This document shows, piece after piece, positions 14,910 through 34,796 of a stretch of DNA of 64,000 nt. Source of the DNA: Bacteroidales bacterium. GTDB lineage: Bacteria; Bacteroidota; Bacteroidia; Bacteroidales; P3. Location of the stretch: assembly GCA_024681475.1 (NCBI GenBank), contig JAILAT010000013.1:62001-126000 (forward strand), given 5' to 3'. The translations under genes and the position numbers were made by a program. Each line of letters begins with the position of its first letter. Within the stretch, counting starts at the first letter, position 1. The notes under the pieces were generated by a model. It did not search any database, was not told the origin of the DNA, and worked only from the letters and a program-made list of their open reading frames with translations.

Positions 14910-15275
14910 CTAATCCTTATTGTTCTTGCCAAAAATGTATCCTAAAGCTAATGTTATTAACGGTGTGATGATACCCCAAAAGTCTATCACCTGACCATGC
15001 GTTGAAACCGGCTCGTGAAATAACATAAAGACAGTATATCCTGTCGCAATAAAAACAAGCAAAAATATCAGCAAACCAGCGATATTATTGGAAGAATGTT
15101 CCCGTGCGCCCCAAACACGTCCCAATAATCCCCGAGATTCTTTCTTCTCTTCCTTGGATATTTTTTGTGACTCCAAGTTTGAATCTATTATCTTCTTATT
15201 AACAGATGTGGGAAGATTAGGATTCAACTGGGTAGTACCTTCATTTATTTTCGGTTGCCGAATTTGGTTCTCCAT
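14910..15275 (-). CDS. small membrane protein of unknown function
   Basis: 121 residues. A polar, charged N-terminus of about 65 residues (with a run of Glu, Lys and Arg around 38-50) is followed by two hydrophobic segments: NIAGLLIFLLVFIATGYTVF and the stretch VIDFWGIITPLITLALGYIFG. It ends in GKNNKD, so both ends are probably cytoplasmic. The start lies 35 bases inside the upstream gene, suggesting coupled translation and a shared function. I do not recognise the family. The topology resembles small holin-like or membrane-anchor proteins, but nothing more can be claimed. Confidence 0.6.
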   Translation of the reverse strand: MENQIRQPKINEGTTQLNPNLPTSVNKKIIDSNLESQKISKEEKKESRGLLGRVWGAREHSSNNIAGLLIFLLVFIATGYTVFMLFHEPVSTHGQVIDFWGIITPLITLALGYIFGKNNKD

Positions 15276-15624
15276 TGCTAATGTTATCTCCTAAATACCA
15301 TGTATGGATGATGGTCTTATTGTTATTGTTCTGCATACCAATTATTTTGATATGTAGAAACAACTTACGGCCATTATAATTACCAATCTCTATGGGCTCA
15401 ATAAACTCCGTTCCTAAAGGATTATTAAAGTTTTGAATATTAATCTGCAACTCTTTCTTTTCATTCATATCTGCAGACATATCTTGTTTTCCATCCTCAG
15501 TGGTAACAAAACACAAACGGACAACCATACCTTCGGTCAGTGTAAAGACGGTATCGCCGTTGTTGAAACTTGTCACACATCCCGACTCAAGAATCTCATA
15601 TGAGCCTACTTTTATACTTTGCAT
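15241..15624 (-). CDS. small soluble protein of unknown function, paired with a membrane protein
   Basis: 127 residues, no signal peptide or membrane segment. It appears beta-rich (VGSYEILESGCVTSF, TVFTLTEGMVVRLCFVTTED, KKELQINIQNFNNPLGTEF, RKLFLHIKIIGMQ), suggesting a small beta-sandwich. Its 3' end overlaps the next gene by 35 bases. It lies between a sugar kinase and a WecF-like transferase but has no obvious polysaccharide role. I recall similar uncharacterised small proteins in varied bacterial genomes but cannot name the family with confidence. Confidence 0.6.
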   Translation of the reverse strand: MQSIKVGSYEILESGCVTSFNNGDTVFTLTEGMVVRLCFVTTEDGKQDMSADMNEKKELQINIQNFNNPLGTEFIEPIEIGNYNGRKLFLHIKIIGMQNNNNKTIIHTWYLGDNISNGEPNSATENK

Positions 15625-15642: not shown

Positions 15643-16665
15643 TTATCTTATTATTCTCCCAGAACCAGTTGAATTCATCAAGCTCTCGACTTCTGCCACT
15701 GACACCATATTGAAATCACCTTCAATTGTCTGCTTTAGGCAACTAGCTGCGACTGCAAACTCGAGAGCCTTCTGTGGTTCATCATATTTGGTCAGTCCAT
15801 ATATCAATCCTGCGCCAAACGAATCACCCCCGCCAATGCGGTCAACAATATGGATGGTATATTTGCGGCTTGTATAGACCCGTTGACCATCAAAAAGAAT
15901 AGCCGACCAATTGTTGTCACTGGCAGAAATAGATTCGCGTAAAGTAATGGCCACTTTCTTAAAATCAAATTTCTCATTCAACTGTCGAGCCACTGATGCA
16001 TAAGACTGCTCATCTAGTACACCACTATTCACGTCACCATTATCCGCTTTGATGCCAAAGACATCAGCAGAATCTTCTTCGTTAGCGATGCAGACATCCA
16101 CATAGTGGCAAAGTTTCGTCATCACTTCCTTGGCACGTTCTCGGCTCCAAAGTTTCTTGCGATAGTTAAGGTCGCAACTGATGGTGATACCCTTTGCCTT
16201 GGCCACTTTACATGCATCAAGACATATTGTGGCTAAAGAGTCACATAAAGCCGGAGTTATGCCCGTCCAATGGAACCATTCAACCCCCTCAAAAATAGCA
16301 TCCCAATCAAAATCTATCTGAGTGGCACATGCAATTGCTGAACCTTTTCTATCGTAGATAACTTTTGAAGGTCTCTGGCTAGCTCCTTTCTCCGCAAAGT
16401 AAATGCCTATTCGGTCACCTCCACGAGCCACTTTACTGGTGTCGACGCCATAGTGGCGTAGAGTATTGATGGCCGCATCGCCGAAGTCATTGTCAGGCAA
16501 TTTACTTACAAAGATTGAATTCAATCCATAATTTGCTAAAGAAACCGCCACATTTGCTTCGGCTCCAGCATATTCGACGTTCATTGCATCTGCCTGCAAA
16601 AAACGTTTATAAAACAGAGGAGAGAACTTCATCATAATCTCTCCAAAAGTCACTATTTTCTTCAT
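15643..16665 (-). CDS. PfkB-family sugar kinase, 2-keto-3-deoxygluconate kinase-like
   Basis: 340 residues. The start IVTFGEIMMKFSPLFYKRF and the GGAEAN-like block AGAEANVAVSLANYG are typical of KdgK. The ATP/anion-hole motif near the end is DRIGGGDSFGAGLIYGL, with the catalytic Asp in GGGD. KdgK phosphorylates 2-keto-3-deoxygluconate at C6. Here it is 2 bases from an HpcH/HpaI aldolase gene and near a CMP-sugar synthetase-like gene, so it may act on a ketodeoxy acid made for the polysaccharide instead of in catabolism. Enzyme class is firm; substrate is inferred. Confidence 0.85.
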   Translation of the reverse strand: MKKIVTFGEIMMKFSPLFYKRFLQADAMNVEYAGAEANVAVSLANYGLNSIFVSKLPDNDFGDAAINTLRHYGVDTSKVARGGDRIGIYFAEKGASQRPSKVIYDRKGSAIACATQIDFDWDAIFEGVEWFHWTGITPALCDSLATICLDACKVAKAKGITISCDLNYRKKLWSRERAKEVMTKLCHYVDVCIANEEDSADVFGIKADNGDVNSGVLDEQSYASVARQLNEKFDFKKVAITLRESISASDNNWSAILFDGQRVYTSRKYTIHIVDRIGGGDSFGAGLIYGLTKYDEPQKALEFAVAASCLKQTIEGDFNMVSVAEVESLMNSTGSGRIIR

Positions 16666-16667
16666 GT

Positions 16668-17441
16668 TTACTTGTTAAGCTGGAAACGCATACGCTCAAT
16701 ACGAGCCTCGTCCTCATTGGATAAACGAGTATAGTAGTTCTTCTTATTCAATAGCCAAAGCAACTCAAAATTCAAAGCTTTGTGAATGGCTTTTTTCAAA
16801 TGCTCCCCGTTGTTATCCATTGTAATAATCACTTTACGAGTCTCAAATCGCTCAGCCACATCGCTCATGCCTATCACAAATGGTATGCTCTCAATGCCGA
16901 TATTACCACCAAAGTTGGTTGTATGGCCTTCCGCTTTCGACATCTGTAAAAGGTCTCTAGTAGCATCAAACACCGGTTTGCTTTCAATATCTTTTCGGTC
17001 GATACCCATCGATGCTGAAAGGTCACTGCGACCTACTGTTACTGCATTCAAGAAACCGTTTCCAGCCTCGAGAATCTCCTTGTAGTTAGCGTGGCAAGTT
17101 TTGGTTTCGGCATTGATAATCCATTCTACGGAGTCAATTTCATTGCCATAAACACGCTTCGCGGCGGATGCAAACTTTCTCATCGCAAATGGAGTTTCAA
17201 TCATGGGAGCCATAATACCTGTAGCACCCAGCAATTTGCATTGCTGCATATCATGAACGGCCTCGCAACCACCTATTTTCGTAATGAAAGCCAAATCAGC
17301 TCGTATGACTAATTCTCTAAGACTGATTAATTCGTCCATTCTTGCACCTTCCGCCTCAAATTCAGCTTTGATGCCATATACTCCATAAACCTCCTTTAAT
17401 TCCAGAAGAGCGTTTAACATTTGTTTTTCTTCCCTGTTCAT
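16668..17441 (-). CDS. HpcH/HpaI aldolase / citrate lyase family protein
   Basis: 257 residues, a complete TIM-barrel class II aldolase of the HpcH/HpaI type. Visible elements are VYGIKAEFEAEGAR (substrate/phosphate loop), FITKIGGCEAVHDM, the metal-ligand-like segment GIMAPMIETP, and NAVTVGRSDLSASMG. Members make or cleave 2-keto-3-deoxy acids from pyruvate and an aldehyde. The location between a ketodeoxysugar kinase and an acylneuraminate cytidylyltransferase-like gene is unusual for a catabolic enzyme and suggests a biosynthetic aldol step. Confidence 0.85.
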   Translation of the reverse strand: MNREEKQMLNALLELKEVYGVYGIKAEFEAEGARMDELISLRELVIRADLAFITKIGGCEAVHDMQQCKLLGATGIMAPMIETPFAMRKFASAAKRVYGNEIDSVEWIINAETKTCHANYKEILEAGNGFLNAVTVGRSDLSASMGIDRKDIESKPVFDATRDLLQMSKAEGHTTNFGGNIGIESIPFVIGMSDVAERFETRKVIITMDNNGEHLKKAIHKALNFELLWLLNKKNYYTRLSNEDEARIERMRFQLNK

Positions 17442-17501
17442 AATATTCTTATTGATTATTATGTTTTGATTACTTGATATTAATTCAAAAACAATATTGC
17501 T

Positions 17502-18191
17502 TTAATCTAGCAAATCTTTTTTTTCAATTTGAGTTTTTATATACAATTGTTCGGCAATATAAAAGTCAAGTGGAGTATCAATGTCCACTGCCTCAATATC
17601 ACTTGTGATAACAAAATCCGGCTTCTTCCCAATAATGTTGTGATTCTTAATCAAATCTTCTCTCTTCACAACGGTTGTGCCAAAATTCAATGCAACAACA
17701 TCAGGTAGATTTTGTGAATTGGGGGCATTAAGTGGATCGTAATTCATTGCCTTACCATCCAACCATAAAAACTCCTTGATGGAAGAAACTGTTGAAACGC
17801 AATCGTGTTCACCTTTATCTTCTAAGAACTTTTTGATACATGCAGAAACTGTTTCTGGCTTCACGAATGGAGATGTACATGGGGTATATATAAAAACATC
17901 TGTATCTGTTACTTCGCCCAAGTGTTTAAAAAAATCACTTCCAGAACACTGTGATGAGGCATAGTATTCATCACGACGATGATAATTTACCTTGGTTCCT
18001 GCATATTCTTCCTCAACGAATTCTATCGCCGCTTCTGAATTTGTATTAACTATAATCTCATCTATTTCTGGCACCTGAAGCAACGATTTAATTTTCACTT
18101 CAAGAAGGGTGGTCCCTGCAAAAGGACGAAGGTTCTTGTCCTTTACTCTTTGTGAACCCTTACGAACTGGTATAACTGCTGTGATTTTCAT
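17502..18191 (-). CDS. acylneuraminate cytidylyltransferase-family protein (CMP-sugar synthetase-like)
   Basis: 229 residues, the usual length of the NeuA/KdsB-type catalytic domain. The nucleotide-binding signature IPVRKGSQRVKDKNLRPFAG lies at residues 6-25. Further conserved pieces are IIVNTNSEAA, the DVFIYTPCTSPFVKP core and the acidic end SDIEAVDIDTPLDF. These enzymes activate ulosonic acids (sialic, legionaminic, pseudaminic or Kdo) with CTP. No NeuB-type condensing synthase is present in the window, so the keto acid may come from one of the aldolase-like proteins nearby. Confidence 0.87.
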   Translation of the reverse strand: MKITAVIPVRKGSQRVKDKNLRPFAGTTLLEVKIKSLLQVPEIDEIIVNTNSEAAIEFVEEEYAGTKVNYHRRDEYYASSQCSGSDFFKHLGEVTDTDVFIYTPCTSPFVKPETVSACIKKFLEDKGEHDCVSTVSSIKEFLWLDGKAMNYDPLNAPNSQNLPDVVALNFGTTVVKREDLIKNHNIIGKKPDFVITSDIEAVDIDTPLDFYIAEQLYIKTQIEKKDLLD

Positions 18192-18251
18192 AAATTGATA
18201 TATTATTATTTAGTTATTATCTAAAGCTTTTTTTACCGACACGTAATCCCA

Positions 18252-18694
18252 TTAGAATTGAATACCACGAGTGATATCAAAGTCTATTTTCTTCATAGGA
18301 ACATGTATTTCGACATTTCGTAACACTTCAAGATTCTTTTGTGGGTAATGGTCTTTGTAATAGTCAATGAACTTACCGTGAACATACCTCTTGGAAATGA
18401 TAACATTATTATTCGGTGTGTCGAGATAATCGTTCACCGGAATTACGATAATACAATCTTGGTCAAACAGATCACCCAGTTTGATGATTATTGTCTTGTT
18501 TTGTTAAGCCGTATAGAGTCAACCTTCTTTCTTATGCTTTTAATTACCGCATAAATCACTGAAATGGTTACTCCACCAATCCATAGTAGCGGACAGTTAA
18601 TCTATGGAAAGATGACGACTACTATTGTGAGCAAGTTAGAAAGTGCGCCCATGGCAGAGTCAAAGTGTATTCCAAGCCGTTTTATCTTTTTCAT
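18252..18694 (-). pseudogene. broken membrane-anchored macro-domain (ThsA-macro-like) gene
   Basis: Read on the minus strand, an ATG at 18694 opens a frame encoding MKKIKRLGIHFDSAMGALS and a hydrophobic segment. An in-frame TAG (18602-18604) interrupts it, and the same frame then continues through a second hydrophobic segment (WIGGVTISVIYAVIKSI). At about 18490-18503 the coding moves to another frame that reads TIIIKLGDLFDQD, IIVIPVNDYLDT and ISKRYVHGKFIDYY, ending at 18252. This order (two membrane segments, then a GD-F / PVN-Y-DT / HGKFI domain) matches TM-anchored macro-like proteins of the ThsA_Macro type as I recall them. The domain is also cut short at its end, so the gene looks dead. 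Confidence 0.6.
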
Positions 18695-18829
18695 TAACTA
18701 CACATTTCCTTTTATTGTAGGTCAGATCACAGGAGACATGTAGAAGAATTGTAGAAAGGAAGAATATGGGAACATCGTCGAATGATTATCGAAGGACCAC
18801 CGAAATTAGGTGTCGTTGGAATGATCATA
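18695..18829 (-). other. gene-free stretch beside the macro-domain remnant
   Basis: 135 bases between the candidate transferase gene and the start of the macro-domain remnant. No supported ORF, promoter or terminator is visible. It is probably the upstream part of the inserted and decayed segment. Confidence 0.35.
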
Positions 18830-20482
18830 TTAAAGTGCATTCAGGTAGTCAAATACTTTCTGATATTTCCAAACAATCTCAATGTTCAAGCAATTGTTTT
18901 TTTCTATCGGGAATGTATAATGCCCGGTGACTTTCTTCATGAATTTGTAGCCTCTCTGTTCCCATGTTAAGGGGAATACCTTACCGTTGACTTTTACAAT
19001 CTCCAGCTTTGCGAAACCTGCGACATCATCCAATGGGTAGAATTCAAAACTATCAGCTTCGGTTCCAGACAAACGCATGGTACACTTCAGACTGCCTGCC
19101 TCTGTTTTTTTGTTGAGGCGCCAATGCGGTTTGCCGCCAAGCATAAATTTTGAACTGGCGGCAAAATAATCAACATCAAAGTCTTGATTGTCCTCAATAA
19201 CGTCATTAATCACCTCGTCATCACAGTTACGGCTTTCGAGAATTTGCCTCAAACGATCCGCTTCTTCAATCTCTGTCAAAATTGATTTAGGAAGGTTAAG
19301 CTTTTCAATATAAAAGACAAGATGTTTTTTGTATATCTCTGTTTCTGTCGGATTAGTCATGCGCCATTTCCAGTACGAATCTGAGAACATCAAATCGCCT
19401 GGGATAAGATAACAGAAGATATAATAATTAAGAGCCTTAATATCAGCAATATCAAGTGACATATAATCAGTATTACACATGAACGAAAAGTCCATTGTAT
19501 ACTTTGGCGAAATAACTGGACGTTTCCATAGTAAAGCTTTCAGCATAATTTGAGACTGAATTGCCACAAGCCGTTTGCACCCCAATATAAATGACGCTGG
19601 ATCATTATGTATTTCATTATTATCCAAGTGCTTATACACAAGTTGCATGGCGTGTGTCCTAACTCTGGCATTATCCCTCCCAAACAGTTTATCTCCCTCA
19701 TACATCAAATCATCATCAACATATTTTGTACTCTCAAAATTATGGGGCATAATTGCATGCAACTCGTTGCATCGAGCTATCTCACAATCGGGTTGATGAT
19801 TAATTAATTGCAATAAAGGTAAGTTTCTGTCCTTTCCAATTATCGCAAGTATCTCTTCATTACTAAAAATAGGGAAATCAGCATGATCACTTAAGAATTT
19901 TCCATACTTGTCTTCAGCATCATGTGACTCCCAAAAGACACCATCGGGATGAACAAAATAAAGAGTTTGTCTATAACCATGAGGTTTTCTTATAGCTGAA
20001 AAAGAATATGAAAATAATGGTATGTTTTCTTCTTTACACACTTTGCGAATACATCCAAAACATTCAAGACTACATAATACGCCTTCAATCTTTTCGCCTT
20101 TGTGATTATCTCGTATTATACTCAGTGTCGTTCTAAAGAAGGACTCCAATTCCTTGAACTCTCCTTCTGCTGTGGTCATCAGCATTTCCGTTCTCGAACC
20201 ACACGCTTTCTCCTTGTCTTCGAAAATTTTATCGGGTACAAAATACTGTTCAACGTCTTTAACTTCATCCAATGAGAACCTTCTCATCTCGAAATCACTA
20301 AAGAAGCGCTCATCAACAGCATCTTGGAGAAGTTTAAAGTTATTTTTGATATATTCATGACTGATGAGTGCCCAACCATTTTCCTTACAATGAAGCAAAT
20401 TTTTTAGATACCACCTTATCCGATATGAAATATGGTTATATTCTGTGTTAAAAACAATGGAGACAAACATATTATTCTTCAA
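18830..20482 (-). CDS. unassigned 550-residue protein, candidate glycosyltransferase
   Basis: 550 residues, soluble, no signal peptide. I do not recognise a firm family. The segment IEGVLCSLECFGCIRKVCKE near 160-180, then ENIPLFSYSFSAIRKPHGY and QTLYFVHPDGVFW, resembles an N-terminal sugar-transferase half. AIQSQIMLKALLWKRPVISP near residue 335 resembles the S-x-ALxxGKPV strand-helix of Kdo-transferase and KpsC/S-like enzymes. After about residue 450 a beta-rich domain follows (PHWRLNKKTEAGSLKCTMRL). Beside CMP-sugar synthetase-like and aldolase genes, it could be the transferase for the CMP-activated sugar. It overlaps the SDR gene by 11 bases. Confidence 0.6.
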   Translation of the reverse strand: MKNNMFVSIVFNTEYNHISYRIRWYLKNLLHCKENGWALISHEYIKNNFKLLQDAVDERFFSDFEMRRFSLDEVKDVEQYFVPDKIFEDKEKACGSRTEMLMTTAEGEFKELESFFRTTLSIIRDNHKGEKIEGVLCSLECFGCIRKVCKEENIPLFSYSFSAIRKPHGYRQTLYFVHPDGVFWESHDAEDKYGKFLSDHADFPIFSNEEILAIIGKDRNLPLLQLINHQPDCEIARCNELHAIMPHNFESTKYVDDDLMYEGDKLFGRDNARVRTHAMQLVYKHLDNNEIHNDPASFILGCKRLVAIQSQIMLKALLWKRPVISPKYTMDFSFMCNTDYMSLDIADIKALNYYIFCYLIPGDLMFSDSYWKWRMTNPTETEIYKKHLVFYIEKLNLPKSILTEIEEADRLRQILESRNCDDEVINDVIEDNQDFDVDYFAASSKFMLGGKPHWRLNKKTEAGSLKCTMRLSGTEADSFEFYPLDDVAGFAKLEIVKVNGKVFPLTWEQRGYKFMKKVTGHYTFPIEKNNCLNIEIVWKYQKVFDYLNAL

Positions 20483-21443
20483 ATTTGTTTATTTCACGCT
20501 CTTTTTTCATATCGCGAAGCATACTGATGTAATCATACTTCGGTTCATAGCCAAGTTCACTACGAGCATTATCTATGTTCATGATATATTGCGGAGCATT
20601 TGGCATCTCTGGAGAAAACAATATCTTGGATTTCTTTTCTCCACCAAAAACCTCGATCATTCCTTTGATTTGATCAAGCAATGTGATTCCTACTCCAGTC
20701 CCGATATTATAAAAACCATAATCCCTATCAACAAAACATGCTTTAAAAAACTCTTGACATAAGTCTTTCACATAAACCATATCCTTCGCACGATTCGGGT
20801 CTCCCCATACATGTATATCTTCACCTTTTTCTGCTTGGTCAATCAGGATCTTCCACGCTTGCTTTGTTATTACTCCGTTTTCGCAATAAACTTTATTGTG
20901 CCAAGAATAAATTGTGGGAAGTCTAAAGATAAACGTCCTCAAATTGTATATTGAATGATAATATTTCACACAATCCACAGCGGTGCACATTGTCGCAATA
21001 TAGAAAGATTTCGTGTCAGAATAATCCAATTCTGGTGTCATGTCTGGAAAGAGGACAGGATCCACTTCCGCTTTTTTCAAAAGATCACCAAATGTCTGAG
21101 CAAACAGTATACGGTTCACATTATTGGCGCGGCAGAACTCCAATACATTACATGTACCTGAAATATTTGTATCAATGTATTTCTGAGGGTCAAATCCCAC
21201 CATTCTTGCAGGCATAGTTGTAGCCAAATCAATGACACAATATATGTCTTTGGGAAGAATCTCAAATTTCTCTTTATTTCTGATGTCAATTTGATAAAAT
21301 GTAGAACGTTTCTCTATAAACCTACACGATTCAAGATCAGCAGTCAAGAGTTCAATATCATATTCTGTTCTACGCTCGAAAAAATAGTCCACTATATTAC
21401 GTCCTATTCCCCCGTTAGCTCCTAAAATCAATATTTTCTTCAT
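20472..21443 (-). CDS. NAD-dependent epimerase/dehydratase-like SDR with altered catalytic motif
   Basis: 323 residues with an extended-SDR fold. The NAD-binding motif GANGGIG is at residues 8-14. CVIDLATTMPA corresponds to the NxAA region, and a C-terminal substrate region includes DMVYVKDLCQEFF and YNIGTGVG. The usual catalytic YxxxK reads YIATM in SFYIATMCTAVDC, so the catalytic Lys is Met, and the usual Ser region reads FAQTFGDLL. Either the enzyme uses other residues or it binds without standard catalysis. Normal length and tight packing between functional genes argue against a dead gene. Confidence 0.75.
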   Translation of the reverse strand: MKKILILGANGGIGRNIVDYFFERRTEYDIELLTADLESCRFIEKRSTFYQIDIRNKEKFEILPKDIYCVIDLATTMPARMVGFDPQKYIDTNISGTCNVLEFCRANNVNRILFAQTFGDLLKKAEVDPVLFPDMTPELDYSDTKSFYIATMCTAVDCVKYYHSIYNLRTFIFRLPTIYSWHNKVYCENGVITKQAWKILIDQAEKGEDIHVWGDPNRAKDMVYVKDLCQEFFKACFVDRDYGFYNIGTGVGITLLDQIKGMIEVFGGEKKSKILFSPEMPNAPQYIMNIDNARSELGYEPKYDYISMLRDMKKEREINKFEE

Positions 21444-21455
21444 AACCTATATATA

Positions 21456-22052
21456 TTAAAGGTGGTTACTCCAATCAACTTCTTTTATCTTCTCTTGACG
21501 TTCAGGCGTTGGTCTTTCGCGCTCTCCGACTTTTTTACATGGAGAACCCACATATATTCCCCAAGGCTCTAAGTCTTTATTCACCAGGCTATTTGCTCCA
21601 ACGACAGCCCCTTCTCCAACTGTAACACCAGGTAACAATGTGCATCCAGCCCCAATATATGCGTCATCTTTCAAAATGATATCACCATAAAATGATTCAT
21701 GGCAGCCTTCAGGCACATGTTCAATAGCATAATATCCATTTAATTTGTAAGAAGATGTAAGAATTTTTGAGCCAGGACCAACAAAAACCCTATCGCCAAT
21801 AATTGCACTAGCGCCACCTTCAATAACTACATTCCAAGTTATTGTTGAATATTTACCTATCTTAAGTCCCGCACCTGCATCAATAAAAACAAAATCCATT
21901 ATCTGACAATGATTGTCAAGTTCTGCACGGTTTGCACGAATCATCTTGCATAAAGGATATAGTCTTACCCCCTCACCACAAAACTTTAAATCTTTACGAA
22001 TGTTTTCTCCCATAAATTGGAGACCTTCAAGCCTTAAATTATTATCTTCCAT
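21456..22052 (-). CDS. hexapeptide-repeat acetyltransferase (LbetaH)
   Basis: 198 residues. Repeats run from about residue 30 (CKMIRANRAELDNHCQIMDF) to 175, and the active-site loop (YAIEHVPEGCHESFYGDI) contains His. The signature GAGCTLLPGVTVGEGAVVGA is followed by NSLVNKDLEPWGIYVGSPCK. Likely an acetyl-CoA-dependent O- or N-acetyltransferase for a sugar precursor. It sits between the SDR and the RraA-like aldolase gene, so it may act on the unusual keto sugar or on the 4-amino sugar made by the nearby DegT protein. Confidence 0.83.
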   Translation of the reverse strand: MEDNNLRLEGLQFMGENIRKDLKFCGEGVRLYPLCKMIRANRAELDNHCQIMDFVFIDAGAGLKIGKYSTITWNVVIEGGASAIIGDRVFVGPGSKILTSSYKLNGYYAIEHVPEGCHESFYGDIILKDDAYIGAGCTLLPGVTVGEGAVVGANSLVNKDLEPWGIYVGSPCKKVGERERPTPERQEKIKEVDWSNHL

Positions 22053-22071
22053 GTTGATAAATATTTAATTG

Positions 22072-22782
22072 TTACATATTTTTCTGAATTTCATTTAATT
22101 TTCTCAACATCTTGTCGTCAATAAGCCCGCCTTCTAGATACTTTTTCTTGCAAACGGTATCAAAAGTGCTCATTTTTAGAGTATCCACACAATAGAACCA
22201 GATATCCTCTTGGAATTCAATGAACTCGAGCTTGGTAAGAAGTTTTTCATCTATTTTGTCCTTTGGTATCACAACAACACCACTATCATCACATACCATA
22301 ATACTTCCATCATACTTATCCTTTAATTCTAGCAACAATTCAGAATCAATTTCTGGACCGTTCGGACGATTAACACAACCAATTGGGCTTACTCCTTCCA
22401 ACCAAATAGGGTATTTTTCCTTAATAAGAGTATGCGCATCACGCAACTTGCCATTAATAACTATAGCCTTGGCTCGTTTATAAAGCATTATATACTTAGA
22501 CACCAAGTCACCAAAAACAGCACGATCACAATTAACATTATAGACGAATAGAATCTTGTCCTTAATGTCATCGCACTCTGCCAACTGCTTGTGAACCTCA
22601 TAGTTGCTATTGTTTATAGCATAGATAACCTTCACTTCTCCAGCCTTGAACATCTGTGCGTTCAAAGCATGGACTCCTTCAATCTGACCAGTTTTGCCCA
22701 ACACATCGGCAATCTCCGTGGTCGATATTTTGTTGGCCTCTATCAGTTCAAGGGCTTGTTGTTTAATAGTTTCTGTATCCAT
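22072..22782 (-). CDS. RraA/HMG-aldolase-family protein
   Basis: 236 residues of the RraA-like swivelling fold. The family signature is visible as AIVINGKLRDAHTL (the Arg-Asp pair is the substrate- and metal-binding site), and VMVCDD-type and VVVIPKDKIDE segments lie later. Members of this family include class II pyruvate aldolases acting on 4-hydroxy-4-methyl-2-oxoglutarate or 4-carboxy-4-hydroxy-2-oxoadipate; others inhibit RNase E. In a polysaccharide operon with an ATP-grasp gene 5 bases away, an aldolase-type role is more likely than RNase control. Reaction not proven. Confidence 0.8.
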   Translation of the reverse strand: MDTETIKQQALELIEANKISTTEIADVLGKTGQIEGVHALNAQMFKAGEVKVIYAINNSNYEVHKQLAECDDIKDKILFVYNVNCDRAVFGDLVSKYIMLYKRAKAIVINGKLRDAHTLIKEKYPIWLEGVSPIGCVNRPNGPEIDSELLLELKDKYDGSIMVCDDSGVVVIPKDKIDEKLLTKLEFIEFQEDIWFYCVDTLKMSTFDTVCKKKYLEGGLIDDKMLRKLNEIQKNM

Positions 22783-22787
22783 AATAG

Positions 22788-23993
22788 TTAGTAAATAATC
22801 CGGAAATTCCTTTCAACACTGTTAATCACCTCACGAAGTTTCTGCATGTTTTCAGAACAAACAATATAGAAACCAATACGCACCGAGTCATTCAAGGCAT
22901 TTTCAATAGTATCACCTATTTTGAAATTCAGGCGATAGTGTTTGATGTCTGGTTCGTTTTCGATGTAATCCAGGCCTTTTATTTCTCTCACCTTTCCACC
23001 ACCACCAGGGGTCTCAAAGAATTTCAATACCGCAGTACGGTCTTTATATTCAGGACGGAGCGAGAAATCCTCATCATGAACATTTCCTGTTGCACACTCT
23101 ACAAGATAGCGATATGTGTCATAACCGGTCATAAATTGTGTGATGCAGGAGGAAATCATATTACCACCACCACGAGCTGCGATTTCAATCAGATAGAACT
23201 CGCCGTCCTCATATTTGTATTCAGCATGAGTAAACCCAAACTGAAGGTTACTCTTCATTACAAAGGCATCATTGGTAGCTCTCAGTTTATCATAATCGAA
23301 ATTGGGGTTGTAGTGCGAGAATAACAATTCATTAGCAATACTCTTATTATGGGCAAAGTGCTTCTTTTCGCTAATCGCCATCGTATAATGGCCGTGTGGG
23401 GTCTTTACACCATCAATGGTGAACTCTGTTCCAACGATAAAACGCTCTGCCAAGACTGATTTATCAACACGGGAGAATGACATTGACTCATCAAAGTGTT
23501 TGCGAATATCCTCTTCGGTATCACAACGGAACACACCGTGACTGGCATTGCTATCAAGAGGCTTGATGATGATAGGGCGTTTGATTTCATTCAACAACGC
23601 AACCGCATCGTCAACCGCCTTACAGAACTTATATTCCGGATAGCGTAATCCATGCTTCTTGCTGAACTCACGCATCAGGAACTTATCCGTGAACAACGCA
23701 GCAGTATCTTCATCCAGTGTAGGGACATTAAAGGTCTTGCCCAATTCAGCAACAAGGTTCATAGCTATATCGCACTCATCGGACATAACTGCACTAATCT
23801 TCTGGTCGCGTCCGAACTCAATCACACGATCCTTATCAAAGATGTTTGAAACCAGACATAAATCCGCCTTCTTCATACCAGGAGCCTCAGGGTCAGGATT
23901 AACCACCATGGCTTTATGACCCATTTCCTGAATCTTTTCAATTAGCGGAACCTGCCATTGGGTTCCAGGGAGCACTAATACATTCTTGCTCAT
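22788..23993 (-). CDS. ATP-grasp ligase (PurK/carbamoyl-phosphate-synthase-like)
   Basis: 401 residues. The preATP Rossmann domain begins MSKNVLVLPGTQWQVPLIEK. The ATP-grasp core has PIIIKPLDSNASHGVF, the glycine-rich region LAERFIVGTEFTIDGV, and the metal site YLIEIAARGGGNMISS. It belongs to the broad group that joins carboxylates to amines. It is unlike the ATP-grasp protein at 4043-5188 in sequence, so the locus holds two separate ligases. It likely forms an amide or ester-type substituent on a sugar or its precursor. The substrate is unknown. Confidence 0.82.
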   Translation of the reverse strand: MSKNVLVLPGTQWQVPLIEKIQEMGHKAMVVNPDPEAPGMKKADLCLVSNIFDKDRVIEFGRDQKISAVMSDECDIAMNLVAELGKTFNVPTLDEDTAALFTDKFLMREFSKKHGLRYPEYKFCKAVDDAVALLNEIKRPIIIKPLDSNASHGVFRCDTEEDIRKHFDESMSFSRVDKSVLAERFIVGTEFTIDGVKTPHGHYTMAISEKKHFAHNKSIANELLFSHYNPNFDYDKLRATNDAFVMKSNLQFGFTHAEYKYEDGEFYLIEIAARGGGNMISSCITQFMTGYDTYRYLVECATGNVHDEDFSLRPEYKDRTAVLKFFETPGGGGKVREIKGLDYIENEPDIKHYRLNFKIGDTIENALNDSVRIGFYIVCSENMQKLREVINSVERNFRIIY

Positions 23994-24006: not shown

Positions 24007-25110
24007 CTAATTTACGATTAACTCAAGTATTCTTTCAACATCCCTTTCACATAACTCGTGGTGCATAGGTAAACAAATAACTTCATTAGCAATTCTGGTT
24101 GCCACTGGTAAATTCGAAGGTGCCGCACTTGGCAAACCACGATAAGTGCTGAATGTGCTTATCAATGGGAAGAAATATCGGCGACCGAGTACGCCATTAG
24201 CTTTCATCTTGAAATACAGCTCATCACGCGTCATTCCATAAACTTCAGCATTGATAAAGATAGGGAAGTAACTATAGTTGTGGCGCACACCAGGCATATC
24301 ATCAAAGAAACGGACACCCGGAACATTTCGCAAAGCCGCGCGATATTTGATAGCCACTTGATGGCGTTTCTCTATAGCCTCATCCACCTGCTTTAAATTC
24401 AACAGTCCATAAGCCGCCCGCACTTCGTCCATCTTGCTGTTGATACCCGGAGCGACAACATCTGTTTCATTTGCAAAGCCAAAGTTTTTTAGATAATCAA
24501 TCCTATTCTTTGTTGCTTCATCATGCACAACAAGCGCGCCTCCCTCAAGAGTATTATAAACTTTAGTGGCATGAAAACTCAGCGTTGCCATATCGCCTGC
24601 ATTCAAAACACTTTTACCATTTATCGCCACACCGAAAGCATGAGCTGCATCATAGATCACTCTCAAACCATACTTGTCTGCGATAGCCTGAATCGCCTCC
24701 ATATTCACAGGCTTTCCATAACAATGCACAGGCATTATGGCTGTGGTTTTGGGAGTTATGGCAGCCTCAATCTTATTAGGGTCAATGCCACAGGTGCTCT
24801 CCTCTATATCAACAAAAACTGGGCGACAACCATTCCACCAAATACTATGTGTGGTGGCCACAAAACTATAAGGCGTTGTGATGACCTCGCCAGAGATACG
24901 TAAAGCTTGTAATGCGGTAAGCAATGGCAATGTTCCGTTGGTAAACAAGCAAATATACGGAACTTTCAGATACTCAGCTAGAGCAGATTCCAATCGTTGA
25001 TGGAATTGTCCGCCATTCGTAATCCATTTACTAGCCCAAACATCCTTGAGCATCTCATTAAACTCATCGAGGTTGGGCAGCAACGGTGAGGTGACAGTTA
25101 TTTTATCCAT
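24007..25110 (-). CDS. DegT/DnrJ/EryC1-family sugar aminotransferase
   Basis: 367 residues, the standard length. The PLP lysine lies in LSFHATKVYNTLEGGALVV, and the cofactor-stacking Asp in VIYDAAHAFGV. The start TSPLLPNLDEFNEMLKDVW and SKWITNGGQFHQRLE fit VioA/WecE-like enzymes that aminate a 4-keto-6-deoxy nucleotide sugar using glutamate. With rfbA next to it and a WecF-like transferase downstream, a dTDP-4-amino-4,6-dideoxyhexose is a good guess. The ATG overlaps the flippase stop by 8 bases. Confidence 0.9.
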   Translation of the reverse strand: MDKITVTSPLLPNLDEFNEMLKDVWASKWITNGGQFHQRLESALAEYLKVPYICLFTNGTLPLLTALQALRISGEVITTPYSFVATTHSIWWNGCRPVFVDIEESTCGIDPNKIEAAITPKTTAIMPVHCYGKPVNMEAIQAIADKYGLRVIYDAAHAFGVAINGKSVLNAGDMATLSFHATKVYNTLEGGALVVHDEATKNRIDYLKNFGFANETDVVAPGINSKMDEVRAAYGLLNLKQVDEAIEKRHQVAIKYRAALRNVPGVRFFDDMPGVRHNYSYFPIFINAEVYGMTRDELYFKMKANGVLGRRYFFPLISTFSTYRGLPSAAPSNLPVATRIANEVICLPMHHELCERDVERILELIVN

Positions 25111-26566
25111 TTCGTTTAAAAAACTTATTTACAATCGGTAATGCTATCTGTTTAAGTTCTTTATACTCCTCCAATTTGGTCCATTCCAATAGTCCAAATG
25201 CTATTACGACTCCTACAACAATTTGGATAGGTAGTAGGATAAAAGGATTAAGAGGCATGAACGAAATGCCAAATACAGGCAGAGCAACCGCAAATGCCAC
25301 TCCTAATGAAGGAAGAATATCTTTTATTTGGTCTTTTGTGCTATATCCGATATATTTCCCAGAATAATAGGAATTCAACCAAAATCCAATGCATCCTCCT
25401 GTAATAAAACCGAGTACTAACATCCAGTAAATATTAAAAAAAATACCTGCCAATATTGGAAAAACTCCAATTATTATCTTAAGTATTTCTAATTTAAGAA
25501 ATAAGTCACTCCTTCCTTGAACTTGTAACATATTTAAATTAATAGAATGCAGAGGGTATAGAGCCATACTGAAACATACTAGTTGCATCATTGGAACACT
25601 AGGTAACCACTGTTCGCCTATTAACACAAGAATGAGCTGTTTAGCACAACCAGCCATAAAAAAAACGAGAACAAAAACCACCAAAACAGTTACCTTGATA
25701 ACAATACGATAACCATTTTTTAGACGATCTTTTTCATCCTGTATTTTACTCAGGGTTGGATAACTCACTTTTTGAACCACAGATGTTAGGTTTTTAGAAA
25801 CAAGATCCACATATTCCCTTCCCTTAGTATATTGTCCTAGAGTCTCTGCACTATAACACTTTCCTATTACAATCTGATTAACTTGCCCCCATATAGAATT
25901 TATAATACCTGATATCATCAATTTCCATCCAAAACCAAATAGCTCACGGAAACTATTCCATGAGAAGCAAAAGGAAGGCATCCATCGCCTATAAAACCAT
26001 AAACATATAGTATTGAATAATATCTTTGAAAGTTGCTGTCCGACTAAAGCCCAAACTCCATATCCCATCAATGCCATCGCAATACCAATCACACCACTAA
26101 TAACAGATGATATAACATTACATTTTGTTTGGGTCTTGAAATCAATCTCTTTTGTTAGGAGTGTTCGCTGTATTAAGCAGAATGCATTAAAGATCAAGTA
26201 GAAGGACATCACCTTTGTGAGTGGTATCAATTGTTCATCCTTAAAGAAATGAGCAATAAGGGGGGCTCCTAAATACATAACAAAGAACAAAAATACAGAA
26301 ACCACAAGATTAGTGATAAACATCGTGTTATTGTCAGATTCCGTAGCATCCTTCTTTCGTATCAATGCATTTGAAAAACCGCTGTCAATAATACCATCAA
26401 ATACGGCTATGAGTGCCATTATGATGCCTATCAAACCATATTCGGCAGGAGACAATAAGCGAGCTAATACGATACCTACCACAAAAGTGATACCATAACT
26501 AGCTATTGAGCCTCCGAAACTCCACCAGACGCCCTTGGTGGTTTGACTACGTAATGATTCTGACAT
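25103..26566 (-). CDS. wzx: polysaccharide repeat-unit flippase (Wzx/PST, MOP superfamily)
   Basis: 487 residues with about 12-14 membrane segments. The N-terminus GVWWSFGGSIASYGITFVVG followed by LARLLSPAEYGLIGI is the conserved PST/WzxC opening. It would move the undecaprenyl-linked repeat unit across the inner membrane for the Wzy polymerase. It starts exactly at the last base of rfbA's stop codon region (1-base contact), so the two genes are coupled. Confidence 0.92.
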   Translation of the reverse strand: MSESLRSQTTKGVWWSFGGSIASYGITFVVGIVLARLLSPAEYGLIGIIMALIAVFDGIIDSGFSNALIRKKDATESDNNTMFITNLVVSVFLFFVMYLGAPLIAHFFKDEQLIPLTKVMSFYLIFNAFCLIQRTLLTKEIDFKTQTKCNVISSVISGVIGIAMALMGYGVWALVGQQLSKILFNTICLWFYRRWMPSFCFSWNSFRELFGFGWKLMISGIINSIWGQVNQIVIGKCYSAETLGQYTKGREYVDLVSKNLTSVVQKVSYPTLSKIQDEKDRLKNGYRIVIKVTVLVVFVLVFFMAGCAKQLILVLIGEQWLPSVPMMQLVCFSMALYPLHSINLNMLQVQGRSDLFLKLEILKIIIGVFPILAGIFFNIYWMLVLGFITGGCIGFWLNSYYSGKYIGYSTKDQIKDILPSLGVAFAVALPVFGISFMPLNPFILLPIQIVVGVVIAFGLLEWTKLEEYKELKQIALPIVNKFFKRNG

Positions 26567-27486
26567 TATTCTGTCTTACCGAGAATGTTTATAGAGTTGA
26601 CTTCTTCCTTCATTTCATCGATCACTTTCAGTAGATACTGACCGTACTGATTCTTAATCATCGGTTTGGCCAACTCACGCATCTGTTCCTCGTTTATCCA
26701 CCCCTTTCTGTAAGCAATACCTTCCAGACAAGCTATTTTGAGACCCTGTCTCTTCTCAATGGTCTCAACGAATGTTGATGCTTCAGCTAGGCTGTCGTGG
26801 GTTCCAGTATCAAGCCAAGCAAATCCACGTCCTAACAGTTGTATTTTAAGCTCGCCGTCTTTAAGGAACTCTTGGTTAACGGTCGTGATCTCCAACTCAC
26901 CTCGTGCAGAAGGTTTGATGTGTTTTGCCACATCCACTACCTTATTTGGATAAAAGTAGAGGCCAACGACAGCATAGTTGCTCTTTGGTTCCTTTGGCTT
27001 CTCCTCTATGGAAAGACAGTTGCCTTGTTTGTCAAACTCAGCAACACCATAACGTTCAGGATCGGAAACCCAGTATCCAAAAACAGTTGCTTTCTTGTTT
27101 TCTTCAGCATCTTTTACAGCCCTTTTCAATAGTCCGGTAAAGCCACTTCCATAGAAGATGTTGTCGCCCAACACCAAACAAGCAGAATCATTTCCAATGA
27201 ACTTCTCTCCGATAATAAAAGCTTGTGCTAACCCGTCTGGACTAGGTTGTTCTGCATACTCAAAATGTACACCGTAGTCAGAGCCATCTCCTAATAAACG
27301 CTTGAATCCCGGCAAATCATGTGGAGTAGAAATAATCAAAATATCCCTTATACCCGCCAACATTAAAACAGAAATGGGATAATAAACCATCGGTTTATCA
27401 TAAATGGGTAATAATTGTTTGCTAACTCCTTTTGTAATTGGGTACAACCTAGTGCCGGAGCCTCCAGCTAAAACAATACCTTTCAT
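26566..27486 (-). CDS. rfbA: glucose-1-phosphate thymidylyltransferase
   Basis: 306 residues, close to the family's usual 290-300. The nucleotide-binding signature [19 protein letters not shown] is at residues 8-26. [14 protein letters not shown] and the product-binding [12 protein letters not shown] are also present. It forms dTDP-glucose from dTTP and glucose-1-phosphate. rfbB, rfbC and rfbD are not in this window, so the next step (4,6-dehydration) must be supplied from elsewhere. Confidence 0.95.
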
Positions 27487-27530: not shown

Positions 27531-28286
27531 TTAGATGTGTTCCTCCACACCACGAAAATGAACATTCAATTCGTGTAGATGCTCCAGAAGCGTTCCCAAG
27601 GGTGTACCTTCTGTCATCTTTGCAAAGGCATTGACATCCTTTGGGAAGCATTTTCCACCATAACCAAACTTACCATCAGGACCAGGAACATAAGTGTGAG
27701 TATCGTTGATATAACCAGAGAGAAGAATGCCAGTATGGACTTTGCGCCAGTCTGCGCCCATCTTTTCACAATACTCACGGCAGGCATTGAAATAAGTTAC
27801 CTTGTATGCACCAAACACGTTGTGCATATATTTTGTCAACTCAGCCTCAAGAGGAGTCATCACGGTAAACTTCTTGCCCACAAAAATCTTGGTAAGCAGC
27901 TCATGTGCTCCCGTGAACACCATAGTCTGCTTCTTGAAATCCTCGATGTGGGTGCGCTCGGTTAGAAACTCAGGCATATAGCACACCTGATGGCCGGTCT
28001 CCTTTGAAAGGCGGTCGCTGGTACCCGGAAGGATGGTAGTACGCACGAACACGGGGACATCGGGGAGCTTCTTAATCAGCTCCATCATAAGACGCAAATC
28101 CTGTGTGCCATCGTCTTCGGTGGGCACATGAATCTGCAAGAAAGCAATATCGATGTTGCTTAAATCATCATTATATCCCTTAGGAGGGTCACTGATAAAA
28201 AGTTTACATTCCGGGTTGTTATGTTCCAACCAATCTTTGAGGGCTCCACCGACAAAGCCACAACCAATTATTCCAACGTTAATCAT
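27531..28286 (-). CDS. short UDP-glucose/GDP-mannose dehydrogenase-family protein lacking the C-terminal domain
   Basis: 251 residues from the ATG at 28286; an upstream ATG at 28340 adds 18 non-family residues. The NAD motif GIIGCGFVGGAL opens the protein. FVRTTILPGTSDRL, PEFLTERTHIEDF and the catalytic Cys block GYGGKCFPKDVNAF are all present. Normal nucleotide-sugar dehydrogenases continue for another 150 or so residues with a UDP-binding domain; here the protein stops soon after the Cys block. The frame ends cleanly, so this may be a distinct short family. Whether it oxidises a nucleotide sugar is uncertain. Confidence 0.75.
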   Translation of the reverse strand: MINVGIIGCGFVGGALKDWLEHNNPECKLFISDPPKGYNDDLSNIDIAFLQIHVPTEDDGTQDLRLMMELIKKLPDVPVFVRTTILPGTSDRLSKETGHQVCYMPEFLTERTHIEDFKKQTMVFTGAHELLTKIFVGKKFTVMTPLEAELTKYMHNVFGAYKVTYFNACREYCEKMGADWRKVHTGILLSGYINDTHTYVPGPDGKFGYGGKCFPKDVNAFAKMTEGTPLGTLLEHLHELNVHFRGVEEHI

Positions 28287-28488
28287 TGTGATTATTTTTA
28301 TTATGTTATTTTTTTTCGCCTGTTCGGGCTCATGCTGCAATTCATTCGTTCATCATTTCAAGTTTTGATAACTGATGTTTTATATGTCAATATGCCAGTC
28401 AAGCTGCCTTTTGCAACAAAATTGCAATTATCATGATGTGCATGGTCGCTTCGGATCAAATCTTGGCTCAGAAAGGCAATGTAAATGA
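28287..28488. other. non-coding gap upstream of the HNH remnant
   Basis: About 200 A+T-rich bases with no supported ORF. The pieces ttttgcaa and ttgcaatt form a small palindromic cluster near 28411-28428. No clear promoter for either strand is visible. Confidence 0.35.
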
Positions 28489-33494: not shown

Positions 33495-34796
33495 TCAGTC
33501 GCGACGGAAAATATCTCTTGTATAGACTTTATCCTGCACATCATCAAGGCTGGTGTCGTAACGATTAGCTACTATGGCTTGGCTTTGCTCCTTAAACTTT
33601 TTCAAATCGTTCACCACTAAACTGCCAAAGAATGTGCTTCCGTCCTCCAACGTCGGTTCATAGATAATAACTTCTGCTCCTTTGGCCTTGATTCGTTTCA
33701 TAATACCTTGTATTGCACTTTGGCGGAAGTTATCACTATTGGATTTCATTGTCAGACGATACACTCCAACAATGCAATGATGTTCTTTACCTGCATCGTA
33801 AGCGCTGCTTGCCTCATAGTATCCGGCTTTTCTTAACACAGCATCAGCAATATAGTCCTTTCTGGTGCGATTGCTCTCGACGATAGCACTCATCATGTTC
33901 TGCGGGACATCCTCGTAGTTGGCAAGCAACTGCTTGGTGTCCTTGGGCAGGCAGTAGCCACCGTAACCAAAGCTTGGGTTGTTGTAGTGGGTGCCGATGC
34001 GGGGGTCGAGACCGATGCCGTCGATGATGGATTGGGTGTCCAAGCCCTTCATCTCGGCGTAGGTGTCGAGTTCGTTGAAATAGCTAACGCGCAGGGCGAG
34101 GTATGTGTTGGCAAAGAGCTTGACAGCCTCGGCTTCTTTCATACCTACGAAGAGCGTGGGGACATCAGTCTTGATGGCGGCCTCTTGCAGGAGTTTAGCG
34201 AAGACGTGGGCACGTTCGGTGAGCCAGTCGATATCAGTCAGGGCTTTGATGGCTTCGTTCTCTTCCTTGTACTCGGGACCTGGCATCATTTTAGGTATGC
34301 CGACAATGATGCGGCTGGGATAGAGGTTGTCGTAGAGGGCTTTGCTCTCGCGCAGGAACTCGGGACTGAAGAGCAAATTAAACTTCTTGACCCCTTGCTT
34401 CTGGTATTTGACGTACAGTGAGCGGGTATAGCCCACGGGGATGGTGCTCTTGATGACCATCACAGCATTGGGGTTGACCTTGAGGACTGCATCGATGACT
34501 GCCTCCACGGCGCTGGTGTCGAAGAAGTTCTTCTGACTGTCGTAGTTAGTGGGGGCCGCTATTACCACAAACTCTGCATCGCGATATCCGGATTCTTGAT
34601 CAAGGGTAGCTCGGATACTGAGGGGTTTGTTGGCCAAATAATCCTCTATATAGTCGTCTTGAATAGGCGACTTCTTGTTATTCACCAAGTCAACACGTTC
34701 GGGGACCACATCCACAGCGGTCACATCGTTGTGCTGTGCCAGCAGTGTGGCGATACTCAAGCCTACATAGCCTGTTCCTGCAACGGATATTTTCAT
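33495..34796 (-). CDS. ugd: UDP-glucose 6-dehydrogenase
   Basis: 433 residues with the full three-domain layout. The NAD motif is GTGYVGLS at residues 7-14, [14 protein letters not shown] and [15 protein letters not shown] lie in the middle, and the catalytic Cys is in [17 protein letters not shown]. The C-terminal UDP-binding domain is intact ([17 protein letters not shown]). It oxidises UDP-glucose to UDP-glucuronate. It is the first gene after the locus promoter, about 180 bases downstream of it. Confidence 0.95.

Follow-up and report, generated by a model that had tools for sequence, protein, structure and literature searches.

How does a cell supply a cytidine monophosphate (CMP)-ulosonate synthetase with its substrate when no gene for the expected synthase can be found? 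This question is raised by a 64,000-nucleotide stretch of DNA from a Bacteroidales bacterium (assembly GCA_024681475.1, contig JAILAT010000013.1, positions 62,001 to 126,000), referred to here as the window, whose gene content by Pfam is that of a surface-polysaccharide locus. In the window, a gene for a NeuA-like synthetase stands next to genes for an HpcH/HpaI-type protein and a KdgK-like kinase. To our knowledge, every proven biosynthesis of a CMP-ulosonic acid uses a phosphoenolpyruvate (PEP)-dependent synthase. We lean, by a little, towards the view that the NeuA-HpcH-KdgK row (15643-18191) and a GT99-like glycosyltransferase make and place a 3-deoxy-2-ulosonic acid without NeuB, and that HpcH-KdgK is a re-used branched-sugar module.

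The NeuA-HpcH-KdgK row and the GT99-like gene

The genes on which this reading rests are the following.

15643-16665, minus strand: KdgK-like PfkB sugar kinase (2-keto-3-deoxy acid kinase); PfkB, 119 bits
16668-17441, minus strand: divergent HpcH/HpaI-type protein, proposed pyruvate aldolase; Pfam, 41.9 bits, cut-off 25
17502-18191, minus strand: NeuA-like CMP-ulosonate synthetase; CTP_transf_3 PF02348, 55.3 bits
18192-18829, minus strand: broken gene remnant between the GT99-like gene and NeuA; frame 1 stop-rich, no listed open reading frame (ORF) of 90 aa
18830-20482, minus strand: divergent GT99-like (beta-Kdo-transferase-like) glycosyltransferase; PF21912, 33 bits, cut-off 27

The initial annotation had named seven genes on one strand between 15643 and 23993. 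All seven are intact ORFs on the minus strand at the coordinates it gave, and the spacing of 2 bases between the KdgK-like gene and HpcH was confirmed. Neither the GT99-like gene nor the 18192-18829 remnant was in its gene list.

The top PDB match of the kinase is the 2-keto-3-deoxygluconate (KDG) kinase 2afb (E 1e-117). The protein also matches the kinase half of NF041633 with 588 bits, below a cut-off of 700 that is set for a fusion, and it retains the GxGD motif as GGGD within DRIGGGDSF. It is 69-71% identical to the KdgK proteins encoded beside HpcH in four other loci (L004-L007), and 41% identical to the KdgK of locus L061. The HpcH protein has the HpcH/HpaI family fold and no NCBIfam match. 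Its residues E112 and D140, which we take to be metal ligands, align with residues of YfaU and are invariant in 31 of 31 rows of an alignment (A2) that holds the window protein and those of 30 of the 31 HpcH loci described below; L034 was excluded for its split match.

The NeuA-like gene lies 60 bp upstream of HpcH. The top NCBIfam model for its product is PseF (56.6 bits versus a cut-off of 205.7), and the nearest PDB entry is PpNeuA 9t4z (E 5e-14). The alignment keeps the stretches RKGSQRVKDKN and DIDTPLDF, an N-terminal RxGSxxxxxKN-type motif and a DID motif that we assume to be the CMP-ulosonate synthetase signature of NeuA.

The GT99-like protein (550 aa) matches PF21912 N-terminally, and its C-terminal half matches WbbB (5fa0, E 6e-10), a GT99 transferase of beta-3-deoxy-D-manno-octulosonic acid (Kdo), with the conserved WbbB histidine aligned to H277. 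The first 267 residues alone had no PDB match, so there was no alignment of the N-terminal half; a single-sequence structure model reached a predicted local distance difference test score (pLDDT) of 35. Among 393 genomes a single other homologue was found at E 1e-30. The presence of such a gene in the locus fits a CMP-ulosonate donor. The available part of PMC12887879 states that retaining Kdo-like transferases may not readily evolve toward common ulosonic acids, sialic acids included. For a shorter sugar we regard this statement as neutral, neither helping nor harming.

NeuB and the aldolases beside NeuA-like genes

The initial annotation had reported no NeuB/KdsA-type gene in the window, and had named such a gene just outside it as what would overturn its proposal. 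By tblastn the window contains no NeuB, and NeuB (PF03102) was unmatched in the source genome, an assembly of 2.38 Mb in 63 contigs whose 87% completeness weakens this negative. NeuB was also absent from four of four further genomes of the same taxonomic family that are 99-100% complete. The KdsA half of the statement did not hold up as evidence. PF00793 (KdsA/3-deoxy-D-arabino-heptulosonate 7-phosphate synthase) was likewise unmatched in the 87% complete source genome, but it occurs in 39 of 41 family genomes, including 33 of 33 of good quality. Because relatives carry PF00793 and the source genome is incomplete, the absence of KdsA is uninformative, and we dropped it.

The window's NeuA matched 18 places in 16 of the 393 genomes at E 1e-20 or better, the window included. 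These are its nearest kin, and other NeuA genes fall outside the set; two of the matches (in G008 and G057) read through one stop codon. Nine of the 16 genomes are without NeuB, three have weak matches (E 1e-5 to 3e-4) and four have clear ones. All nine NeuB-less genomes have an aldolase-type gene at a NeuA-like locus. An HMGL-, HpcH- or RraA-type gene is adjacent or one gene away in 11 of the 18 loci, as confirmed by tblastn: an HMGL-type aldolase in seven (L054, L055, L056, L058, L060, L061 and L062), HpcH in three (the window, L066, where it is adjacent, and L064, where it is one gene away) and RraA, one gene away, in L068 only. In L066, the HpcH protein is related to HpaI/GarL (169.8 and 160.9 bits, under the curated cut-offs), and the genome carries NeuB on another contig. 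NeuB adjoins the NeuA-like gene in L069 and L070, and WaaA does so in L063, L065 and L067, where the NeuA-type enzyme may replace KdsB. In L057 and L059 a KdsD-type SIS-CBS gene is adjacent to NeuA or one gene away, and no aldolase was found.

The best support for the proposal of the initial annotation comes from loci that repeat the row of aldolase, CMP-synthetase and KdgK. The HMGL protein of L061 (HMGL515), a 515-aa relative of 4-hydroxy-2-oxovalerate aldolase, is present in five of 393 genomes at 1e-60. In five of five the very next gene encodes a CMP-synthetase, which is NeuA-like in four and KdsB-type in L088, where the 251-aa product was typed by phmmer and a custom hidden Markov model (HMM). 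KdgK comes next in L061 and L088 with an overlap of a few bases, and the two KdgK proteins are 56% identical. These loci differ from the window in that the aldolase is HMGL515 rather than HpcH. Three loci, the window among them, thus combine an aldolase, a CMP-ulosonate synthetase and KdgK; the aldolases come from two families, and the synthetases are of two types. In a tree of NeuA proteins, the window sequence groups weakly (81/78) with NeuA proteins encoded beside HMGL515 and falls in no starred set. In a co-occurrence comparison of the kind suggested by the initial annotation, which covered the flanks of 41 other HpcH loci, the exact trio of HpcH, KdgK and cytidylyltransferase appeared in the window only; L061 and L088 have the triad with HMGL515.

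Two other arrangements were seen beside NeuA-like genes. The row at L058:7086-11799 encodes a SIS-CBS (KdsD-like) protein, the NeuA-like protein, a KdsB-type synthetase, an HMGL aldolase and a HAD phosphatase; a Kdo-like sugar made via an aldolase is possible there. In L054 and L056 the NeuA-like gene stands by a 346-aa relative of 4-hydroxy-2-oxovalerate aldolase and a thiamine diphosphate (ThDP) enzyme split into two genes.

HpcH in probable branched-sugar loci

Outside the window, the HpcH subfamily keeps different company. A two-row alignment (A1) scanned against genome contigs gave 31 loci with flanks of up to 10 kb, often ended by the contig end. As longest-ORF lists hid NeuA in L059 and HpcH in L010, L012 and L029, key gene counts were re-checked by tblastn, which covered the presence or absence of NeuA, aldolases, KdgK, NeuB and ThDP genes. 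A ThDP enzyme lies within 3.4 kb of HpcH in 27 of the 31 loci by phmmer, and tblastn gave the identical count; it was undetected in L008, L018 (where the contig stops right after HpcH), L025 and L032. In the window's taxonomic family, HpcH occurs in 11 of 190 genomes, and a ThDP gene adjoins it in all ten others. Overall, a YerE/acetolactate-synthase-like ThDP enzyme is near HpcH in 37 of 41 other loci, which are distinct from one another, often with genes for cytidine diphosphate (CDP)-3,6-dideoxyhexoses. The PDB entries 8rph (356 bits) and then 5ahk, presumably both YerE-like enzymes, rank ahead of other acetolactate synthases for an example of these ThDP proteins. By phmmer, the 31 loci have RfbF in 18, RfbG in 19, RfbH in 19 (20 by tblastn at 1e-25) and a short-chain dehydrogenase/reductase (SDR) in 18; in L022, RfbH, RfbG and RfbF exceed their NCBIfam cut-offs. 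A HAD phosphatase is present in nine of 31, an AroB-like sugar-phosphate cyclase in seven and KdgK in four. The four are L004-L007, which share the HpcH-KdgK pair with the window and all have a ThDP enzyme nearby. Of three cyclases scanned, those of L027 and L020 passed TIGR04425 and that of L017 fell slightly below.

The available part of a review, PMC12247030, describes what such ThDP enzymes do. ErwE joins a hydroxy-functionalised alpha-keto acid to CDP-4-keto-3,6-dideoxyglucose and leaves pyruvate unused, with a preference for longer functionalised donors such as 4-hydroxy-2-oxobutanoate, -pentanoate and -hexanoate; MMAR_2332, which is linked to caryophyllose, prefers similar donors. Caryophyllose is 3,6-dideoxy-4-C-(D-altro-1,3,4,5-tetrahydroxyhexyl)-D-xylo-hexopyranose (PMC5706390, in the part available), and its branch would match what a decarboxylated 2-keto-3-deoxy acid yields. 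Because of the ThDP partners, the donor preference of ErwE and the caryophyllose branch, we think that this HpcH subfamily probably serves, as a rule, to supply branched-sugar synthesis with 4-hydroxy-2-oxo acids, by the logic of erwiniose and caryophyllose. The other partners of HpcH (phosphatase, cyclase and KDG kinase, and the HAD phosphatase and aminotransferase of L008) fit such a product.

Three side observations belong here. Seven loci (L012, L017, L020, L023, L024, L027 and L028) combine HpcH with the AroB-related cyclase, with ThDP in seven of seven and SDR in six of seven, which hints at a dideoxy sugar that bears a carbocyclic branch. At L008:10001-12609, genes for a HAD phosphatase and a class I/II aminotransferase come after an HpcH 73% identical to that of the window, and no ThDP enzyme was seen; conversion of the aldol product to an amino acid is possible there. 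A KdsB-type gene lies about 6 kb from HpcH in L021.

The window differs from these branched-sugar loci. By tblastn with the ThDP queries of L005 and L022 it has no ThDP enzyme, and there is no RfbF; RfbG and RfbH gave only weak paralogue matches, to SDR and DegT genes. NeuA and the GT99-like gene are present instead. The 87% complete source genome also gave no ThDP match, in a search without a positive control.

A model for the locus and its alternatives

Based on these data, we propose a model in which the HpcH-KdgK cassette was taken from branched-sugar pathways and CMP activation substitutes for the ThDP step. HpcH would condense pyruvate with a small aldehyde into a 4-hydroxy-2-oxo (2-keto-3-deoxy) acid, and KdgK would phosphorylate this acid or a precursor. 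Coupling of the acid to CMP would be the task of NeuA, and transfer of the CMP-linked ulosonic acid that of the GT99-like enzyme. In branched-sugar pathways, the same kind of acid would be the donor for a YerE/ErwE-like ThDP ligase. The reactions, the identity of the aldehyde and of the sugar, the place of the kinase and the donor used by the GT99-like protein are all inferred from gene families and gene order. The model has two things in common with the NeuB/KdsA pathways for sialic, pseudaminic and legionaminic acids and Kdo, the Pfam family of the synthetase and a GT99-like transferase; it differs from them in that aldolase-type genes adjoin the synthetase and the genome gave no NeuB match.

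Several observations weigh against this model. No NeuA-type gene was found in the flanks of the 41 other HpcH loci by phmmer, custom HMM or tblastn, and the exact HpcH-KdgK-NeuA combination was seen once, in the window. Seven of the 18 NeuA-like loci have no aldolase-type gene by tblastn. The catalytic Asp-Glu-His region of HpcH reads KAEFEAEG in 31 of 31 rows, and the position of the pyruvate-binding Arg70 of HpaI seems to be Lys55 in 31 of 31 (both mappings are extrapolated); on these mappings, HpcH would not be a canonical HpaI. Its fold scores fail to discriminate aldolases from pyruvate kinases, with a Foldseek template modelling (TM) score of only 0.60. For GT99, we take the reference residues to be the nucleophile Asp232 of QxxxD and the base Glu158. 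In the window protein, QxxxD occurs at residues 53 and 541 and nowhere between 54 and 540, so not at a suitable place. A gene remnant intervenes between GT99 and NeuA, and CMP activation needs no kinase.

Part of the remaining argument concerns the genes that follow upstream, among them a second aldolase candidate.

20472-21443, minus strand: SDR epimerase/dehydratase; PF01370; top NCBIfam model dTDP-glucose 4,6-dehydratase, 72.8 bits, cut-off 365
21456-22052, minus strand: hexapeptide (left-handed beta-helix, LbH) acetyltransferase; PF00132
22072-22782, minus strand: RraA-like protein, second aldolase candidate; PF03737, 61.2 bits
22788-23993, minus strand: ATP-grasp ligase, LAL_C2 type; PF13535, PF18603
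24007-25110, minus strand: DegT/DnrJ sugar aminotransferase; PF01041; 63% identical to the L068 copy

R114-D115 of the RraA-like protein, presumably the active-site Arg-Asp, align with the RD of 3noj, a 4-carboxy-4-hydroxy-2-oxoadipate aldolase. Locus L068 has DegT, ATP-grasp, RraA, GT99 and NeuA (63, 49, 47, 51 and 30% identical to the window proteins) and, by tblastn of the flank, neither HpcH nor KdgK, a further point against the model. It also has no NeuB in the flank or the genome, and no counterpart of the window SDR or LbH gene between the genes of the set. This arrangement suggests two possible roles for RraA: as the older aldolase that belongs to the cassette itself, or as an enzyme for a different residue, probably a second, N-acylated one that ATP-grasp and DegT would serve as well. 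For the window we lean towards the latter role, in which RraA would act on an N-acylated sugar together with ATP-grasp and DegT. The initial annotation had put two pyruvate-aldolase-like proteins into one pathway. Both genes are present, and L068 indicates that RraA may serve another residue.

The company that HpcH keeps elsewhere makes one alternative worth stating, although we think it unlikely: HpcH-KdgK would be the transplanted half of a YerE/ErwE-type pathway, idle or feeding a ThDP enzyme that the assembly lacks, with no relation to NeuA. The ThDP enzymes of 37 of 41 other loci, all four HpcH-KdgK loci among them, the gene remnant and the 87% completeness of the genome speak for it. It is at odds with the intact state of HpcH and KdgK, with NeuA only 60 bp upstream, with the failure to find a ThDP enzyme in the window or genome, and with the recurrence of an aldolase, NeuA/KdsB and KdgK row with another aldolase. 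It is decidedly improbable, in our judgement, that the substrate of NeuA is Kdo, or a different ulosonic acid, supplied from elsewhere by a PEP-dependent synthase, with the aldolases engaged in other work. Such an arrangement would agree with the use of CMP-Kdo as donor by the GT99 enzyme WbbB (PMC9587256, in the part available), with WaaA beside NeuA-like genes in L063, L065 and L067 and with the PF00793 genes of relatives. A dedicated synthetase would be redundant in a Kdo maker, however, because CMP-Kdo is already there; NeuB was unmatched in five of five family genomes searched, and aldolase-type genes recur beside NeuA. That the aldolase behind the CMP sugar is RraA rather than HpcH, with HpcH-KdgK a later addition for another residue, seems very improbable to us. 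L068, with its conserved set and NeuB-less genome, favours this idea, but NeuA is the least conserved protein between L068 and the window, as if its substrate had changed; RraA beside ATP-grasp and DegT fits an N-acyl group, and HpcH lies directly after NeuA.

The aldolase-fed CMP keto-sugar pathway of the initial annotation therefore stands in part. The lack of NeuB, the aldolases near kin of NeuA, the triads of L061 and L088 and the GT99-like gene argue for it, whereas the HpcH subfamily mostly occurs with ThDP genes. A broader hypothesis, which we put forward tentatively and hold a little short of an even chance, is a general NeuB/KdsA-independent route to CMP-3-deoxy-2-ulosonates. Any of three unrelated pyruvate aldolases (HpcH/HpaI, HMGL/DRE-TIM or RraA) would stand in for the PEP-dependent enzyme, in many cases accompanied by a phosphatase or a KDG-type kinase, and surface glycans would thereby gain shorter (for example KDG-size) ulosonic acids. 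The aldol product would go to CMP, a ThDP ligase, a cyclase or a transaminase according to the neighbouring gene. Judged by titles and abstract openings, we found no published description of the pathway, and an earlier mention of HpcH in papers on YerE-like enzymes is possible. The words aldolase, NeuB and HpcH are absent from the available part of PMC13171606. Klebsiella K38 was considered as an earlier example of a 3-deoxy pentulosonic acid and rejected when PMC6856556, in the part available, gave a different K38 sugar.

The rest of the window agrees with a polysaccharide locus. Pfam also typed a UDP-sugar dehydrogenase, SDRs of the Polysacc_synt_2 and Polysacc_synt_C types, a UDP-GlcNAc 2-epimerase type gene, a DegT aminotransferase, glycosyltransferases, a sugar-1-phosphate transferase and two PIG-L deacetylases. 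The scan omitted 1369-2934, 25103-27486 and everything beyond 34796; 25103-27486 reads like a flippase and an RmlA-type gene. Immediately 3' of KdgK lie small genes (14910-15624, minus strand) for a DUF6864 protein and an overlapping protein without a family label. A partial UDP-sugar dehydrogenase (27531-28340, minus strand), whose Pfam match starts within the N-terminal domain, is present besides a complete one at 33495-34796. GC content lies at 34-47% as far as about position 36000, after which it is 51-56%. The nearest HpcH matches are Bacteroidales bins, and four of the best five are titled or coded as rumen or reticulum, if RUG and RUI codes denote rumen, as we assume.

The aldolase-fed route can be tested in the window and in L061, L088, L064 and L066. 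If it is true, NeuA-like genes without NeuB, which are usually annotated as sialic-acid genes, mark different, unrecognised acidic sugars, and the route would tie branched sugars to ulosonic acids through a common building block.

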